The translations under genes and the position numbers were made by a program. The notes under the pieces are model-generated. The model saw nothing but the letters and a program-made list of their open reading frames with translations. It was not told the DNA's origin and did no database searches. From a virus: 64,000 nt of DNA. The stretch lies in the IMG/VR virus record IMGVR_UViG_3300025131_009739, positions 101,873 to 165,872 of that record; one strand, 5' to 3'. Of the stretch, positions 9,685 through 61,880 are shown in pieces (position 1 is the first letter of the stretch; each line of letters opens with the position of its first letter).

Positions 9685-10112
9685 AATTCCTCCACTATCT
9701 CAACTAGAGAACCATCTGGATCTTTACAAAATGTCACTTTCGCAAATCCATCCGGTGAATATTGTGGAGGACTATTAAATTTCACATCGTTTTCTTTTAA
9801 CCGTTCATATGTCTCATCTAAATTATTAACTGTCAAAGCTATATGAGAACAGCCAATTTGTGTTATCCTTCTTGTCATATCAGGCTCTTTCGGATGAGAA
9901 CTATAATATAATAACTCAACCATGTCACCGTTTTCTAAAGACATTTTCACGGTTCTAACAACAACATCTTTTAAGTCTGAAAAATTATTAATGTAATCTC
10001 CAGATTCAACCATATCTTTCTTTACCTCAAATCCTAATAAGTCTCTATAAAATTTTAGAGATCTCTCCATATCACTAACCACAATTCCAGTATGCCTTAT
10101 ATTCAACACCAT
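9681..10112 (-). CDS. VOC-superfamily (glyoxalase/dioxygenase-like) metalloprotein
   Basis: 143 residues with two beta-alpha-beta-beta-beta modules: RHTGIVVSDMERSLKFYRDLLGF and CSHIALTVNNLDETYERLKENDV, closing with CKDPDGSLVEIVEEL. His and Glu ligand candidates are in the expected positions. VOC proteins include lyases, epimerases and dioxygenases. In this setting, between two SDRs, an isomerase or lyase step in sugar synthesis is possible but unproven. Confidence 0.75.
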   Translation of the reverse strand: MVLNIRHTGIVVSDMERSLKFYRDLLGFEVKKDMVESGDYINNFSDLKDVVVRTVKMSLENGDMVELLYYSSHPKEPDMTRRITQIGCSHIALTVNNLDETYERLKENDVKFNSPPQYSPDGFAKVTFCKDPDGSLVEIVEEL

Positions 10113-10810
10113 TATCTTATCACCATTCTATTCATTCGGACTTCTTCTGCAATCATCCCTGAATCAAAAGATATGGTATGAACTATAAAATTAGCAACCT
10201 CTTTCGGATCTAGAAAAGTATTAAAGTCTTGCCTCTTATCGTGCCTGGCCATTTCTGTTTTTGTTGAGCCGGGAGAAAAACAAAACGCGCGCACATTATA
10301 TTCTTTCAATTCCTGGAATAAAGAACGAGTCAAACCCAAAAGTGCATGCTTTGTAGAACAATATATACCAGTTTCTCCGGAGCCATTATAAGCGGACGAA
10401 GAAGCAATATTAATTATGCGACCCCATTTTTGTTTTTTCATATTCTTGGCAAAATAATGAGAAAGAATAAATGGGACTCTGACGTTCAAGGAAAAGCTTT
10501 GATCGAAATCATCAATATCAGATTCCAATATTGATTTTATTTTAAAAACTCCGGCGCAATTCACCAATATATCAATATTTTTCATTTGGTTTGTCGACTG
10601 TTCTTTTACTTCTTCCAAAAATGAATCATAAGTTAAATCTCCTGCTAAAAAATATGAGTTGGTCTCCTTTGCTACGCTTTTTAACTTTTCTTCGTCTCGC
10701 CCAGTCAAAAATAATTTGCAGCCGGCGCTGTGTAGTGATATTGCGATCTCTTTTCCAATACCGCCTGTTGCTCCAGTAACTAAAGCAACTTTGCCATTTA
10801 AGCAGTTCAT
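10112..10810 (-). CDS. Short-chain dehydrogenase/reductase
   Basis: 232 residues with VALVTGATGGIGKEIA, LVNCAGVFK, INIASSSAYNG and YCSTKHALLGL (Tyr-x3-Lys). It shares one base with the VOC gene and one with the neuB-like gene, so the three are strictly coupled. It may reduce a precursor of the nonulosonic acid made by the adjacent NeuB/NeuA pair; this is inference from context. Confidence 0.8.
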   Translation of the reverse strand: MNCLNGKVALVTGATGGIGKEIAISLHSAGCKLFLTGRDEEKLKSVAKETNSYFLAGDLTYDSFLEEVKEQSTNQMKNIDILVNCAGVFKIKSILESDIDDFDQSFSLNVRVPFILSHYFAKNMKKQKWGRIINIASSSAYNGSGETGIYCSTKHALLGLTRSLFQELKEYNVRAFCFSPGSTKTEMARHDKRQDFNTFLDPKEVANFIVHTISFDSGMIAEEVRMNRMVIR

Positions 10811-11649
10811 TATAAAGTGTCCACTTTCCTAAGTTTTTTAGCGATGGCCTTCTCGCTATCATATACAAATTTTTCATTACTTCCCAAAGACTTTTCAATG
10901 TCCCTGATATATTTAACAAGTTTGCTTAAGCCTCCAAGCTCCAAAGAGGCTGACTGATCCGAACCATACATAGCGCGATCCAAAGTAATGTGTCTTTCAA
11001 TTGAAGTAGCTCCGAGAGCAGCTGCTGCGCAGCTGACAATAACCCCCGATTCATGGCCACTATAACCAACATCGCATTGAAAGGTGTCTTTCAAAGTTTT
11101 CATTACTCTTAGATTGGCATTTTCAATTTGCATAGGATATGTGCTGTTGCAGTGCATCAATTCATAAGGACAATCTGCATCTTCAAATATTTGTATTGCC
11201 TTTCCAATTTCTTCCATAGTGCTCATTCCGGTAGATATAAAAGTATACTTACCTTCTTCAGCAATCATTTCTAACAGCTGACGATGTGTTAACATAGCAG
11301 ATGCTACTTTATTATATTTTAAATCATATTGACGCAAAAATAGTTGACTTTCTACGTCCCACGCTGACGCTAGCCATCTAATACCTTTCTTTTTACAGTG
11401 CGCGTCAATTACATCATATTCTTTCTTGGAGAACTCTAATCCTTGTTTTTGTTGTCTGTTAGTAGTCCCCCATGGACTTTCTCGAGGACGATCCAAGTCT
11501 TCTACAGAATATACTAAATCAAGAGTCCGTTTCTGAAACTTGACCGCATCGCAGCCTGCTCGATAGGCGCCGTTAATTAATTTTTTAACTAATTTTAAGT
11601 CTCCATTGTGGTTAATACCAATTTCAGCAATCACAAAAGTTTTATTCAC
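10810..11649 (-). CDS. neuB: N-acetylneuraminate synthase-family enzyme lacking the SAF domain
   Basis: 279 residues with AEIGINHNGDLKL, AVKFQKRT, FISTGMSTMEEI, MHCNSTYP, VGYSGHESG and ERHITLDRAMYGSDQ, all hallmarks of the NeuB TIM barrel that condenses phosphoenolpyruvate with an amino sugar. Full NeuB proteins are about 340 residues and end in an antifreeze-like SAF domain that covers the partner active site. That domain is missing here. Directly followed by the CMP-sugar synthetase gene, it probably makes a nonulosonic acid (sialic, legionaminic or pseudaminic type). Confidence 0.85.
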   Translation of the reverse strand: MNKTFVIAEIGINHNGDLKLVKKLINGAYRAGCDAVKFQKRTLDLVYSVEDLDRPRESPWGTTNRQQKQGLEFSKKEYDVIDAHCKKKGIRWLASAWDVESQLFLRQYDLKYNKVASAMLTHRQLLEMIAEEGKYTFISTGMSTMEEIGKAIQIFEDADCPYELMHCNSTYPMQIENANLRVMKTLKDTFQCDVGYSGHESGVIVSCAAAALGATSIERHITLDRAMYGSDQSASLELGGLSKLVKYIRDIEKSLGSNEKFVYDSEKAIAKKLRKVDTL

Positions 11650-36201: not shown

Positions 36202-36519
36202 TGGTGGAGGCGGTGGGAATCGAACCCACGTCCAAAAATCATCAAATATACTGTCATTCACAAGATTATCTGGTTTTTGAACCAGCAAACTGCTCAGTAG
36301 CTCAATTAAACGTGCGCACCACTTATTTTTATAAAGAAATAAGAAACTTTTTGCTAGTTTTGGAGAATAAGGCCACTAGCAGCCTCAGATTACGCAGCTA
36401 AGGCGTAATCAACTTCAACATTATCGTTGGCAGTTAAAAAGTTGAATGTTTATGCTGTGACACTCACACAGTCTTGCCAGAAATACTATCATAATCTCTG
36501 TCGAAACCATGACACCCCC
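36202..36519 (-). ncRNA. ssrA: Transfer-messenger RNA (tmRNA), one-piece
   Basis: On the minus strand the RNA begins GGGGGTG and ends CGCCTCC-A-CCA. All seven acceptor pairs form (two wobble) and the CCA end is encoded. The T-arm GTGGG-TTCGATT-CCCAC and the 5' TTTCGAC element are typical. A resume codon GCC opens the tag frame, giving ANDNVEVDYALAA then TAA. The product rescues stalled ribosomes and tags the peptide; the ALAA end matches bacterial protease recognition tails. Length about 318 nt is normal for a short one-piece tmRNA. Confidence 0.95.
36390..36431 (-). other. tmRNA tag-peptide reading frame
   Basis: Fourteen codons from resume codon GCC to TAA encode ANDNVEVDYALAA. It is preceded by the TTTTTAACT segment that positions resumption. 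The start AND and end ALAA are conserved in proteobacterial-type tags; the NVEV middle is variable and could be compared with host tags to find the source lineage. Confidence 0.9.
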
Positions 36520-50193: not shown

Positions 50194-50270
50194 TGGCACC
50201 CTCTGTAGGATTCGAACCTACGACCTACAGATTAGAAGTCTGTTGCTCTATCCAACTGAGCTAAGAGGGC
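50194..50270 (-). tRNA. tRNA-Arg (anticodon TCT)
   Basis: Minus strand: acceptor GCCCTCT pairs with AGAGGGT, followed by discriminator G and an encoded CCA. The D arm is AGCTCAGTTGGATAGAGC, the anticodon loop CTTCTAA gives TCT, and the T arm is GTAGG-TTCGAAT-CCTAC. It reads AGA/AGG codons, which are frequent in this A+T-rich genome. It sits five bases downstream of the MlaC-like gene. Confidence 0.95.
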
Positions 50271-53241: not shown

Positions 53242-53330
53242 TACGCGATCACCTGAAGGATACAAAGGGCGGAAGGGACAAAGCACGCGGCAAACTGTGC
53301 GACAACTGCCAGGGTTCTAAAGTATTTCAA
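53241..53330 (-). CDS. Possible 29-residue hydrophobic leader peptide (TTG start)
   Basis: TTG start preceded by GAGAGAGA; encodes MKYFRTLAVVAQFAACF-like hydrophobic peptide whose TAA overlaps the next ATG. Plausible as a coupled small membrane peptide, but short. Confidence 0.35.
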   Translation of the reverse strand: MKYFRTLAVVAQFAACFVPSALCILQVIA

Positions 53331-53361
53331 ATCTCTCTCTCATCTCTAAAGGGTATAACTT

Positions 53362-53390
53362 ATTATCTCATATAGGCGAGGGCATGTCAA
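53362..53390 (-). promoter_or_regulatory. Early promoter 1
   Basis: TTGACA (53385-53390), 17-bp spacer, GATAAT (53362-53367). Drives the genes from 53330 downward. The -35 box borders an 11-bp inverted repeat. Confidence 0.75.
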
Positions 53391-53433
53391 GTAAAAAAGA
53401 TCTTTTATTGAAACTTTTTTTTATGCCCTCGCC
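53375..53433. repeat. 11-bp perfect inverted repeat around the early promoter
   Basis: Arms 53375-53385 (ggcgagggcat) and 53423-53433 (atgccctcgcc), separated by 37 bases of A/T-rich sequence. The promoter -35 touches one arm. Could be an operator or a terminator stem for the upstream gene. Confidence 0.7.
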
Positions 53434-53442
53434 CATGTCCGG

Positions 53443-53727
53443 TTAGGACTTGTAGGAAAAGGAGCCTTTGTTCTCCTCGATGAAGGTTTCGATCTCTTCT
53501 TTGATGGAAAGCAACCGGGCCATTTGTCCCGGGTAAAGGGTAACGGGGAAACGTCCCAAACCATACACGCTCAGCGCGCCTTTCTGGGAGACTTTGAGAG
53601 ACAGCTGTTTAGGCGTGTTCTTCTTTTTCTCTTTCAGTTCCGCTTTGAGGGTCGCGATCTGCTCTTGAAGGTTTGCGAGGTCATTCTGATCTTTGGTCGC
53701 TTTCGCTTTGAGGTCGGCTGATGCCAT
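53443..53727 (-). CDS. Small protein with coiled coil and beta domain
   Basis: 94 residues: a coiled-coil half (DLANLQEQIATLKAELKEKK) then LSLKVSQKGALSVYGLGRFP and VTLYPGQMARLL. The second half resembles a short domain seen in T4-like phages and cyanophages. Function unknown. Promoter 2 lies about 35 bases upstream. Confidence 0.6.
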   Translation of the reverse strand: MASADLKAKATKDQNDLANLQEQIATLKAELKEKKKNTPKQLSLKVSQKGALSVYGLGRFPVTLYPGQMARLLSIKEEIETFIEENKGSFSYKS

Positions 53728-54811: not shown

Positions 54812-55066
54812 TTATTTTTCTTGTTCTCGGGGATATCGCAACCATTCCTTATGAACGCTGACCAGACCATAACCAGGCAGGGCGATTTGATAACAGGACT
54901 TCGCCCGGTTCCCCAGGTACTCGCCAGCATCGGAGAAGTCGGTTTTGCGGGATTTCCTAATGATTACGCCTACTTGCCCGTGTCCCTTGAGAACGTCATG
55001 ACGATCTTTGCCTGCTAACACGTAGTCCCAGAGTTGGATGGTATCGCCTTTCTTGAATGATTTCAT
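54812..55066 (-). CDS. GDLV-family small protein a
   Basis: 84 residues, MKSFKKGDTIQLWDYVLAG start, GQVGVIIR strand and SVHKEWLRYPRE end. A divergent member of the family that fills this region (K-x-GD-x-I/L at the start, a GV/IVI strand in the middle). It overlaps the upstream member by ATGA. Likely a single small beta-barrel. Confidence 0.6.
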   Translation of the reverse strand: MKSFKKGDTIQLWDYVLAGKDRHDVLKGHGQVGVIIRKSRKTDFSDAGEYLGNRAKSCYQIALPGYGLVSVHKEWLRYPREQEK

Positions 55067-55266
55067 TTACTTACGACCTTCCAGCTTGAGGAATAATACG
55101 TATAAGGAGCACCGACACCTGCGGCGACAATCAATACTTCATCCCCCCTGCGGAATCGATCACCGAGCAGCCTTGTGATTACCCCGAGCGTTCCACGGGG
55201 GACAAGATGATCACCGCACCCTGATCCGTTGGGGTGCGTTACCTGAACCAAATCACCGACTTTCAT
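55063..55266 (-). CDS. GDLV-family small protein b
   Basis: 67 residues: MKVGDLVQVTHPNGSGCGDH, GTLGVITRLLGD and SSSWKVVSK. It overlaps member a by ATGA and member c by four bases. The V-x-V-x-start and G-V-I strand define the family; no catalytic residues. Confidence 0.65.
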   Translation of the reverse strand: MKVGDLVQVTHPNGSGCGDHLVPRGTLGVITRLLGDRFRRGDEVLIVAAGVGAPYTYYSSSWKVVSK

Positions 55267-55487
55267 GCTATCACCTCAAAATGTCCCTGAGTGTAGTTAC
55301 CACACCAAACTTTTTCACCCTCGCAGGAGAGCATAACGTCAACGTAGTTACTCAGAGGGGGGTTGTTCATTGTATCGGGGCGCACATCAACGACGATACC
55401 CACACAACCGGCTGGAAATGGCCCGCCTGGTACATGGGGATTATCCCAGACTGCGCGGGTGTTTGTTACTAAGTCACCGACTCTCAT
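55263..55487 (-). CDS. GDLV-family small protein c
   Basis: 74 residues: MRVGDLVTNTRAVWDNPHVP, CVGIVVDVRPD and GHFEVIA. ATGA overlaps on both sides. Confidence 0.65.
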   Translation of the reverse strand: MRVGDLVTNTRAVWDNPHVPGGPFPAGCVGIVVDVRPDTMNNPPLSNYVDVMLSCEGEKVWCGNYTQGHFEVIA

Positions 55488-55725: not shown

Positions 55726-55798
55726 GCATTTTCTTTTTGAATGATCTCGGGAAGTTAGCGGGTTTGGGGTTGTAAGTTGTTGTTATTGTTGGGTTATT
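55726..55798. repeat. Upstream module of early promoter, copy C
   Basis: ATGATCTCGGGAAGTTAGCG then TTGTAAGTTGTTGTTATTGTT. It is the same promoter-associated sequence as copies A, B and D. The neighbouring ncRNA ends just before it. Confidence 0.7.
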
Positions 55799-55849
55799 TA
55801 TTTTGAACTTTTTTTCTTCAATGATCTCGGGCATTTACCCTAGTAATAT

Positions 55850-56424
55850 GGTCGCGGAAGGGCGGCATAACACCCACTCATCAGTCAAAGCTCTCGCTCG
55901 TGATCCTGCATGACTACCGATATTTGGCACGACCATACCCTTGGGGTATTTGGGAAGGGGGAAGGGTGCGCCTGGCTTTGTTGCCTAGGCCCGGTGATAA
56001 GATGCCTCCTATCGGTGGACTAGCGCACCCTTCGCCCCGTAGAGAGAAGGCGGGTTCGATCACATGGTTTCGGGTGGCAGCAACCACCTTCTTTACCCAG
56101 GGAAAGAGGACCGCAACTGTGCTTTTTCACCTTCTCTCTCTGCCAGAGGGAGCTAAGATTAGGGGGTCAATCCCAACCTTGCCTTATTCCCCCGCGTTGA
56201 CTAAACGCGAGCAACCATTATCAGGCGTCTCCGCGACTACCCCTTCAGGCAGGAGGGATTCAAACCCCCCTCCTAATAATGCCTCTGGCTTTCGTAGCGT
56301 GCTACAGACTCACTTTGTTGTAGTCTGACTAACAGCGTGCTCGACCTTTGAGGTGGTCAGGTTCTCACCTGGCTACTGTCAGGGCTCCACCCACACGCTA
56401 CTTTTTTCTATATTTTCAAAGAAC
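55850..56424 (-). ncRNA. Candidate large structured non-coding RNA (about 575 nt)
   Basis: No convincing gene lies between 55835 and 56464, and a fully consensus promoter (56431-56459) points into it. Strong helices, read on the plus strand: 55961-55971/56023-56033 (11 bp perfect) extended by GGGG/CCCC 55957-55960/56035-56038; 56295-56301/56394-56400 (tagcgtg/cacgcta); 56303-56328 (cagact/agtctg); 56250-56273 (aggaggg/ccctcct); 56193-56209 (cgcgtt/aacgcg); 55935-55949 (ataccc/gggtat); 56074-56088 (ggtgg/ccacc). Size and phage setting resemble GOLLD/ROOL-type ornate RNAs, but class is not determined. Confidence 0.6.
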
Positions 56425-56430
56425 AATCCC

Positions 56431-56459
56431 ATTATACCACAATGGGGAGTGGTTGTCAA
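56431..56459 (-). promoter_or_regulatory. Early promoter 6 (ncRNA promoter)
   Basis: TTGACA (56454-56459), 17-bp spacer, TATAAT (56431-56436): exact consensus at all positions. Expected start near 56424, just before the structured RNA. Confidence 0.85.
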
Positions 56460-56464
56460 GTTTT

Positions 56465-56653
56465 TTATTCCCCTGACAGGAACATATTCAGCGCCTCGAC
56501 GCCCAGGGAGTAACAGACAGAACCATCGCTCAAGTCCACGACATTACTGACTTTTTCGCCGTCTTGGATTGAATCAAGTTCTTCCTCTGTAACACGGACA
56601 ATGGTTGCCTCTGTATCCCAGGTTTCGCCATCTGGCATTACTACAATAAACAT
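56465..56653 (-). CDS. Small hypothetical protein
   Basis: 62 residues: MFIVVMPDGETWDTEATIVRV, DSIQDGEKVSNVVDLSDGSV and ALNMFLSGE. No domain recognised. Promoter 7 is upstream, with the conserved ATCGAGGAGAG ribosome site. Confidence 0.6.
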   Translation of the reverse strand: MFIVVMPDGETWDTEATIVRVTEEELDSIQDGEKVSNVVDLSDGSVCYSLGVEALNMFLSGE

Positions 56654-58438: not shown

Positions 58439-59713
58439 TTATGCAACTTTGGGTTCGATGGCTACAATGCGCTCGTTGGTCTTGAAGTACGGGCGTGCGG
58501 CGTGCTCCTTAGTGGTCATCCACATACGTTGACATTTGCTCGCCTTGGGTTTGGGTGCTTCAAGGTCAGTCAATAAAATATGACCATCGAAGTTGCGAGA
58601 GTTTACATACTCTGTCGGCGCATTGAAACAGGTTCCTCCACAACGTACACGCTCCCATTTGCGCTTCTCTCCCTTCTTCCAAACATAGACCTTATCCTCT
58701 GCAACACCAGTATCAAAGGGAATAACCGTGAAAGAAGCAAGATCTGACAGACTATTCAACTCTGCGAAGAAGCAGGCAAGCATAGCATCACTGACTGAAC
58801 CAGACTGGTCAATACTAATAGCGATACTAGCCTGACGGCGAACCTTTTTGCCTGGATGAATGTACGGATACCTTTTATTGATTCGCTTGACTGTGCTTGT
58901 CTTGTTTGCTCTCTGTGAAGTTTTCACAAAGTATCGCAGGACTTTACGCCAGTCAATAGTGCCAGAGATGCGATCAAGGATCTCTTTGCGTACAGCAGAA
59001 GGGACAGTTCCCCAGCTATTAGACTTACTAGCTTCCTCAGATGCTTTCTTGAGTGCGTCTTTCAGACGCTCCTTAGCAATCTCTTTTGTGGTCTGATCAA
59101 CTTCTTCCCACTGTTCATGGGAGTCGAACTGTCCGTTACCGGGCATGCCTCCACCTTCGCCTTCGCCAGGTTCGCCACCGTCACCCTTGCAGTCGCCCTT
59201 TTCGCCTTTGCCCTTGCCTTTCTCTTTGTCAAAGTTCTCGTCTTTCTTGAGTTTTTTGAGGTATTGCTCGGCAGACAGATGAGGCTCATACTCTGCGAAC
59301 ATATCCTTTCCAGGCATAAGACAGCCTTCAGGCAACTGTCCCTGCAAGTGACTGTTGATAGCCAAGTCTGTAGCATAGTTCCACAGCATCATATTCTCGC
59401 CGTCAGGTCTGCGACCTGTCACATGCTCAAAGATAAGATGATAAAACTCATGTTTCAATACCGCAGTACGCTCTATATCTGTGAGTCGAGTAAAGAACTC
59501 TGGGTTATACCACATATGAAACTGAGCAGACTTAGGATCAACAAAGACTGCTGCTGTGGGTATACCTCTGTTCTCGGACTTGTCAATACGACGGGACAAG
59601 GCTGCAAAGAACGGTTCATTCATAAGCAGGCGCGCAACGTGCATATTCAAGTCAAAGGGTGTGGTTTCTTTTGTTTCTGCTTCCACTTGTTCTTTCTCTT
59701 TTTCGATTGTCAT
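58439..59713 (-). CDS. vWA-like/metalloprotease-like protein (DUF2201-type)
   Basis: About 424 residues. AVLKHEFYHLIFEHVTGR carries a HExxH site. A Gly/Glu/Lys-rich linker (GEPGEGEGGGMPG) follows, then SIAISIDQSGSVSDAMLACF, the MIDAS motif of a von Willebrand A-like domain. Such proteins pair with MoxR ATPases, as here. The true start may be a GTG at 59686: aligned with the other promoters the ribosome site falls just before it, while the ATG at 59713 would make the mRNA nearly leaderless. Confidence 0.7.
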   Translation of the reverse strand: MTIEKEKEQVEAETKETTPFDLNMHVARLLMNEPFFAALSRRIDKSENRGIPTAAVFVDPKSAQFHMWYNPEFFTRLTDIERTAVLKHEFYHLIFEHVTGRRPDGENMMLWNYATDLAINSHLQGQLPEGCLMPGKDMFAEYEPHLSAEQYLKKLKKDENFDKEKGKGKGEKGDCKGDGGEPGEGEGGGMPGNGQFDSHEQWEEVDQTTKEIAKERLKDALKKASEEASKSNSWGTVPSAVRKEILDRISGTIDWRKVLRYFVKTSQRANKTSTVKRINKRYPYIHPGKKVRRQASIAISIDQSGSVSDAMLACFFAELNSLSDLASFTVIPFDTGVAEDKVYVWKKGEKRKWERVRCGGTCFNAPTEYVNSRNFDGHILLTDLEAPKPKASKCQRMWMTTKEHAARPYFKTNERIVAIEPKVA

Positions 59714-59720
59714 TGTACTA

Positions 59721-59749
59721 ATGATACCACAGTTGATGTAAGTTGTCAA
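59721..59749 (-). promoter_or_regulatory. Early promoter 10
   Basis: TTGACA (59744-59749), 17-bp spacer, TATCAT (59721-59726). Upstream of the vWA-like gene. Confidence 0.75.
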
Positions 59750-60997: not shown

Positions 60998-61026
60998 ATT
61001 GTAGCAAATGTTTGCGCTGTTGTCAA
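60998..61026 (-). promoter_or_regulatory. Early promoter 11
   Basis: TTGACA (61021-61026), 17-bp spacer, TACAAT (60998-61003). Upstream of the MoxR gene. Confidence 0.8.
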
Positions 61027-61093
61027 GTATTTTCTTTCTCAATGATTTCAATGACTTGCGTTTCCTTGTACTATAAGTAGTTGATTTCATTGG
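61027..61093. repeat. Upstream module of early promoter, copy D
   Basis: CAATGATTTCAATGACTTGC then TATAAGTAGTTGATTTCATTG: same layout as copies A-C, with CAATGA/TCATTG ends. Confidence 0.7.
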
Positions 61094-61124
61094 ATAAAAA
61101 ATATTTTCGATTGCTGAAATATTG

Positions 61125-61880
61125 TTAGGCTACTGCCTGTTCTTCTGTTATTTCTTCGCGGGCTTGGGCTTCTTCCTCATGACGACGAACCACGTAGTAA
61201 TGACCTTCGTCTCTCAGCCTTTGGCGAAAACGCTTTATCGTGTCTTTGTCTGGTTCGTCAAACCAACCATCAGGAGGCTCAACTTTCTCTGAAGGCACAG
61301 CAATATCGTACTCATGTCTTTGCCTTTCGTTATAGCACAAATCAGGGTGATAGGGCATGCCGACTTCCAAGTTAGTGTACCCATAGCGATCTTTGACTTG
61401 CATCTTTGCAACGAAACAGTTAGTGCCGTAATAGTTCTTTTTGTTCTGGTGATCAATCCTGTCCCACACAATATGAGTTATGAACCCCACCGCTGGAACA
61501 ACATTGTAGTTTTCATCGTAGTATTCCTCAAGATGAATGAGAGCACCGATTCCAAGTCCAGTCGCCTTGATATGCTCATACGCGGCTGCGCGATATACAA
61601 TAGCAAGGTCAGTCTCTACTTCGAGATGCGCTTTTATCTCTTCACAGGTTGTGACGTTGTGACCTTCTCTTCTACAATAGCTACAAGAGCGCGTTTTCTT
61701 GTTCTTCTGTTCTCTATCGTATTGGGCAACATAATAGCTATCATCGCCGTTCTCTTTACGATCTTTTTCTATACTCTTTGCTCTGTCGGGACAACTAGAC
61801 CTATTGTGTCCTCTTTCCCAACAATGGCTGCAAGTTACAGTGCGAATGTAGTTGCCCTGTTCATCTCTAAAATATGTCAT
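61125..61880 (-). CDS. Double CCHC zinc-knuckle protein
   Basis: 251 residues. Two zinc knuckles of form C-x2-C-x4-H-x4-C are clear: CSHCWERGHNRSSC and CSYCRREGHNVTTC, about 55 residues apart. A central beta region (VPAVGFITHIVWDRIDHQ) and a Glu-rich helical end follow. Zinc knuckles bind single-stranded RNA or DNA. Nucleic-acid binding is the likely role; the knuckle is rare in phages. Confidence 0.75.
   Translation of the reverse strand: MTYFRDEQGNYIRTVTCSHCWERGHNRSSCPDRAKSIEKDRKENGDDSYYVAQYDREQKNKKTRSCSYCRREGHNVTTCEEIKAHLEVETDLAIVYRAAAYEHIKATGLGIGALIHLEEYYDENYNVVPAVGFITHIVWDRIDHQNKKNYYGTNCFVAKMQVKDRYGYTNLEVGMPYHPDLCYNERQRHEYDIAVPSEKVEPPDGWFDEPDKDTIKRFRQRLRDEGHYYVVRRHEEEAQAREEITEEQAVA

Follow-up and report, generated by a model that had tools for sequence, protein, structure and literature searches.

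To our knowledge, few large structured RNAs of phages have been described, and none has a settled function. Kissing loops and A-minor contacts hold cage-forming RNAs together, and GOLLD RNAs are usually over 800 nt long and found near tRNA islands (PMC12286853). In the lytic Vibrio phage ICP1, the most abundant transcript region corresponds to positions 10098-11108 of record L130 (PMC7567579). This ~800-nt transcript, located between ORF139 and ORF140, is another unclassified large phage RNA, and by reading of its sequence the 3′ end carries a terminator-like GC hairpin and T run.

BoxA is the NusB/S10 antitermination signal of bacterial rRNA operons, in which it lies tens of bases past the start site. 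By recruiting NusB-S10 it is both required and enough for the rRNA antitermination complex to form, while boxC of rRNA operons is found further downstream, where the 5′ strand of the helix joining leader and trailer lies (PMC10250234). The gamma-proteobacterial boxA consensus is GYTCTTTAANA (PMC5725501).

The locus described here lies in the window, meaning the whole 64,000-nt stretch of DNA that was analysed, with which a virus record of 165,872 bases ends. The large terminase is T4-like, with 44% identity to that of Flavobacterium phage immuto and 62-72% identity to those of several related IMG/VR contigs. From ~52 kb to the window end, GC content rises from ~34% to ~45%, genes are small, and almost every minus-strand unit has a perfect or near-perfect sigma70 promoter. 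This part, in which all genes share one direction, is interpreted as the early region. Genes on either side of the GC step around 52000 have homologues in related phages, making a natural mosaic likelier than a chimeric contig.

Between 53000 and 64000 the early region is modular, with units behind TTGACA-17-TATAAT promoters. A recurrent tail, CCCGAGATCATT, is present there in six copies (at most one mismatch) against 0.46 expected, and behind several early genes it reads as the last codons of small VGDLV-type genes. The tail resembles a seam at which cassettes can be exchanged, and the RNA would be one such cassette. Tandem families of 55-90 aa proteins that start MxVGDLV and often end ISESR occupy 54812-55487 of the window, 12974-15008 of L022 and 6187-8315 of L062; for those window copies that were tested, neither Pfam nor PHROG gave a matching model. 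The window also encodes a one-piece tmRNA (minus strand, 36202-36519; tag ANDNVEVDYALAA) with no blastn match in the phage collection, a tRNA-Arg(tct) (minus strand, 50194-50270), and a DUF2201 metallopeptidase/VWA-like protein by Pfam (58439-59749). The PHROGs label of the last, 'HNH endonuclease', has also been copied into some phage records and is a probable misannotation. Two further short intervals fold unusually well, 53300-53449 on the minus strand (z -4.4) and 61000-61149 on the plus strand (z -5.6).

Within the early region, the first-pass annotation had reported a 575-nt gene-free transcript unit. Because the interval encodes no protein, an open plus-strand frame was used as a six-pattern DNA probe in a degenerate-pattern search, which returned two viral contigs, L061 (IMGVR_UViG_3300009620_001468) and L062 (IMGVR_UViG_3300048881_000698, 185 kb). 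Both are marine phage contigs. DNA identity of the RNA to the window is 83.2% over 495 columns in L061 and 79.9% over 512 columns in L062; flanking genes show 65-79% compared with these 80-83%, so that the RNA is conserved at least as well as its neighbours and better than most of the protein genes around it. The small gene upstream (56465-56653) has a homologue upstream of the RNA in both contigs, and the MNKRFKTG gene downstream has one downstream in L062, the nearest of the records compared (terminase 72%, PhoH 70%). Conservation begins at the promoter and boxA and stops at CUUCCCAAAUA (~55945), which shortens the unit to a conserved core of ~480 nt; the span first reported runs ~100 nt too far at its 3′ end.

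55945 to 56424, minus strand: conserved non-coding RNA core, ~480 nt, four helical domains, supported by homologues, covariation and fold z
55846 to 55944, minus strand: variable 3′ segment leading up to the shared GGGTAAATGCCCGAGATCATT tail, outside the core, with no counterpart in either homologue

In L061 the common tail directly follows the core, while the window and L062 each carry an unrelated stretch of 65-100 nt and then the same tail, GGGTAAATGCCCGAGATCATTGAAG. No intrinsic terminator was recognised at the RNA 3′ end. Just after the RNA, a C-rich and almost G-free stretch on the minus strand (55763-55812, AAATAACCCAACAATAACAACAACTTACAACCCCAAACCC) resembles a Rho-utilisation site; the corresponding position in L062 shows no such stretch.

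A single sub-lineage seems to carry the RNA, unless it has diverged beyond detection elsewhere. BLAST, profile and domain-4 covariance model searches found none in more distant relatives (54-67% in terminase/PhoH), 37 of which were gathered via the neighbouring metallopeptidase gene, the BLAST search covering 14 records. No additional homologue came from pattern scans that used a T-arm-like 19-mer and three conserved 16-mers, and no relative from genome-contig scans that used the protein neighbour or the plus-strand frame. In phage, plasmid and E. coli collections, no copy of the sequences searched was present. L002, the contig most closely related (84-92% DNA identity in blocks), stops short of the RNA and is uninformative on its presence.

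Coding potential in homologues was one of two observations that the first-pass annotation had named as speaking against a non-coding RNA. None was found: every frame on both strands contains 3-10 stops in L061 and L062, most indels among the homologues would shift the frame, their lengths not being divisible by three, and the three codon positions carry substitutions in even measure. The unit is gene-free, as originally described. A 142-codon plus-strand ORF was rejected as a gene, having anti-coding codon usage (-29 bits), no family and a broken frame in both homologues. Judged from its sequence, the conserved unit is a structured non-coding RNA. A structured DNA element, e.g. a replication origin, would likewise be gene-free, GC-rich and furnished with inverted repeats. 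However, the RNA strand of the core folds better than its opposite in all three single-sequence comparisons (z -4.7 against -4.5 in the window, -5.3 against -3.2 in L061 and -6.4 against -5.0 in L062), the pairs include 38 G-U cells against one A-C cell (a bias partly due to construction), no direct repeats were found, and the element has a dedicated promoter and boxA. A purely DNA-level role is accordingly regarded as extremely improbable.

The helices described by the first-pass annotation are present. A 588-nt minus-strand segment folds at -234 kcal/mol (z -4.7, with 0 of 100 shuffles as good), compared with z -3.1 for the plus strand. When 150-nt windows were slid over the 10 kb around the unit, very few fell below z -3, and domain 4 (55900-56049, z -5.0) ranks with the strongest of those on the minus strand. 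The proposed structure is composed of the following elements.

56294 to 56401, minus strand: Domain 1, with helices P1, P2 (GGGUGG/CCACCU), GNRA-capped P3 (CAGGU-GAGA-ACCUG) and P4, and the predicted pseudoknot CUGACAG/CUGUUAG
56376 to 56382, minus strand: 5′ strand of the predicted pseudoknot, CUGACAG, forming 7 pairs with 56335-56329
56329 to 56335, minus strand: 3′ strand of the predicted pseudoknot, CUGUUAG, pairing with 56376-56382
56142 to 56289, minus strand: Domain 2, closed by GCCAGAGG/CCUCUGGC, with a fast-evolving arm and two adjacent hairpins
56252 to 56270, minus strand: hairpin P7, its stem rewritten by 3 both-side changes and its 7-nt, T-loop-like loop keeping UUNNA
56198 to 56204, minus strand: P9 hairpin loop UUAGUCA, in which GUCA can pair with UGAC at 56169-56166
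56041 to 56139, minus strand: Domain 3, closed by AGAGAGAAGG/CCUUCUCUCU; its interior combines invariant stretches with the covarying hairpin P12
55959 to 56038, minus strand: Domain 4, a 16-pair stem (4 + 12) with two inner hairpins

Across the three sequences, 99.1% of cells in this structure pair. Covariation, the check proposed at the outset, is evident as both-side changes in 18 of 115 pairs against 6.7 +/- 2.0 for shuffled columns (0 of 500 shuffles as high), in a sample of three sequences from closely related phages that also served to draw the structure. When pairing partners are slid, pairing drops to 42-48% and both-side changes to 1-5. The changes are located in P1, P2, P4, P6, P7, P8, P12, domain 4 and the domain-4 inner hairpin.

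Domain 1 has a mean column identity of 95%, and P1, P2 and P4 show a single both-side change apiece. Its long-range closing stem, P1 (GUAGCGUG / CACGCUAC, 56401-56294), had been recognised in the first-pass annotation and is kept in the homologues with a compensatory change. RNAalifold suggested a GACC/GGUC pairing in this domain; it was replaced by P2 plus the pseudoknot, as P2 covaries and GACC/GGUC does not. The pseudoknot is a prediction, both strands being invariant in all three sequences and so offering no covariation test. Domain 2 holds 10 both-side changes in three variable helices, and the P7 loop reads UUUGAAU, UUGCAAG and UUCAACU across the three sequences. The GUCA and UGAC tetramers in this domain are invariant in all three and could form kissing loops. 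P12, in domain 3, has 3 both-side changes. The stem of domain 4 (GGGG-c-GAAGGGUGCGC / GCGCACCCUUC-CCCC), noted earlier as an 11-bp stem extended by four G-C pairs (56038-55959), keeps 16 of 16 pairs in all three sequences and shows a compensatory U-A to A-U change in L062. A tRNA mimic, built from the P7 T-loop and an anti-T-arm stretch in domain 3 (GAUCGAACCCGC), was considered and dropped, since the arms come in the wrong order and the match is no better than chance would give.

That no known class fits the RNA, first judged by eye, agrees with covariance-model searches. With cmscan at E up to 5-10, none of the three sequences credibly matched OLE or any other family in Rfam 15, and the chance-level matches that did appear differ between them. 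The ROOL model (RF03087) has no match to any of the three at E up to 10 and finds the ROOL of plasmid pMP118 at E 1e-29 as a positive control. The GOLLD model (RF02032), including the conserved 3′ region and run without a positive control, likewise gave no match. A homo-oligomeric RNA-only particle, convergent in kind with GOLLD and ROOL and not homologous to them, would be consistent with the similar size, the phage origin, the predicted pseudoknot, the possible kissing loops, and the presence of a GNRA loop and a T-loop-like hairpin. However, the RNA has no sequence or covariance-model similarity to either family, no long variable linker is seen, the nearest tRNA is a single gene 6 kb away with no tRNA island beside the RNA, and the pMP118 ROOL lacks a nearby boxA. 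Such a particle is considered unlikely.

The leader of the RNA unit contains three features.

56431 to 56459, minus strand: sigma70 promoter TTGACA-17-TATAAT, 12 of 12 consensus positions, with TG before the -10 (extended -10)
56413 to 56424, minus strand: boxA-type antitermination signal GTTCTTTGAAAA, 6 nt after the -10 and at or near the first transcribed base
56390 to 56399, minus strand: boxC-like stretch AGCGUGUGGG, 14 nt after boxA and sharing bases with the 5′ strand of P1

The perfect promoter with 17-bp spacing is exactly as first reported, and its counterparts are TTGACA-17-TATTAT in L061 and TTGACA-17-TACTAT in L062, with TGn kept in both. The weight originally placed on it does not hold. 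Eight perfect TTGACA-17-TATAAT promoters occur in the window against 0.08 expected, since almost all early transcription units possess such a promoter; a promoter common to the neighbouring units argues for strong expression and not for specialness. The shared gene direction, with an RNA that could read through into the next cassette, raises the idea of a cis-acting leader or attenuator of the next gene. However, that gene has its own perfect promoter (55725-55697), and different genes follow the RNA in the window and L062, which together make a cis-leader role very improbable.

The boxA was absent from the first-pass description. The motif GTTCTTTRAAAA lies 6-7 nt past the -10 in all three sequences, inside an otherwise diverging leader; it has a single match within the window, and among 100 loci only the RNA-bearing ones contain it. 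A boxA consensus thus follows shortly after the promoter and is conserved in place, with an exact match in L061 and L062 and one deviation (A to G) in the window copy, relative to the gamma-proteobacterial consensus. Promoter and boxA together occur once in each of the 3 RNA-bearing records and in 0 of 38 other related records (41 scanned), and a reversed control pattern gave zero matches in the 41. A bare or looser boxA pattern by itself is not rare in AT-rich phage DNA. BoxA was found neither within 1.5 kb of the pMP118 ROOL nor in the ICP1 non-coding transcript, so large phage RNAs do not generally have one.

Downstream of boxA, a boxC-like GUGUGG lies 14-18 nt away in the three sequences, in the P1 5′ strand running into P2; the same measure gives 13 nt in E. 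coli rrnB. Compared with UCUGUGUGGG, the stretch has 3, 4 and 2 mismatches in the window, L061 and L062 (shuffle fractions 0.13, 0.52 and 0.012), a weak match that is only suggestive of boxC.

An abundant boxA RNA could also act as a decoy that titrates NusB-S10 or other rRNA-synthesis factors and lowers host rRNA synthesis. In each of the three sequences boxA sits at the very 5′ end, which fits this idea, as does the early-region setting, adjoining small takeover-type genes. One boxA per ~480-nt RNA would make a poor sponge, however, and the conserved folded body, with hundreds of conserved positions outside boxA, would be superfluous. A decoy function is therefore quite improbable.

The explanation towards which we lean, with slightly better than even confidence, is a stable structured RNA that acts in trans and is transcribed early by the host, in the way a small rRNA would be. 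It is supported by RNA identity above that of the neighbours, compensatory changes in two independent homologues, broken frames, and the promoter and boxA in all three sequences. Host RNA polymerase with sigma70 would start at the extended -10 consensus promoter early in infection. BoxA would be the first bases transcribed, and NusB-S10 binding there would convert the polymerase into an rRNA-type antitermination complex. The modified polymerase would resist Rho on the long untranslated transcript and may help RNA folding. The RNA would then fold into its four helical domains, with the predicted pseudoknot and possible kissing loops, and the folded, presumably stable product would act in trans during host takeover, alone or with host proteins. 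Against this proposal count the placement of boxA at or next to the start site, unlike in rrn operons, the frequency of the bare boxA pattern, the lack of a recognised intrinsic terminator, and the restriction to three sequences from closely related phages.

A more specific version holds that an rRNA-style module of boxA, spacer and boxC-like strand has been placed on an unrelated large RNA, with the Nus complex shielding it from Rho and chaperoning its folding. This is a tentative idea that falls somewhat short of an even chance. If true, rRNA-type antitermination could serve as a general production route for big structured RNAs. The phage RNA also provides a compact system in which to study whether non-ribosomal RNAs fold with the aid of the rRNA antitermination complex.

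In the literature searched, which was mostly open-access, no prior report of such an RNA was found, although a bulk survey of viral contigs could list it. By kind, the RNA is long, non-coding, covariation-supported and multi-domain, which places it, as far as sequence can tell, among the large structured non-coding RNAs of phages. Within that group it is a new family, distinct from GOLLD, ROOL and OLE, and it adds a covariation-supported RNA family absent from Rfam 15. Like ROOL, it is phage-encoded (ROOL being phage- or plasmid-encoded), is of similar size (ROOL measuring ~520-580 nt), and has multiple helices and predicted pseudoknotting; unlike ROOL, it has no match to the Rfam model, and the pMP118 ROOL has no boxA within 1.5 kb. 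It shares with GOLLD the status of a large phage RNA that also comes from marine samples (PMC12286853), and differs in its core of ~480 nt and the absence of a model match. The abundant ICP1 transcript is likewise orf-less and without an Rfam family; it shows no similarity to the domain-4 covariance model and is without boxA. The E. coli rrnB leader resembles the phage leader in its promoter, its boxA, a spacer that is 14-18 nt here, and a GUGUGG-bearing 5′ strand of a long-range helix; the phage unit differs in that boxA lies at the start site, no boxB is recognised, the boxC match is weak and no rRNA follows. The RNA offers a concrete and testable link to host NusB-S10 antitermination, and with it an entry to expression and folding that the pMP118 ROOL and the ICP1 transcript lack.
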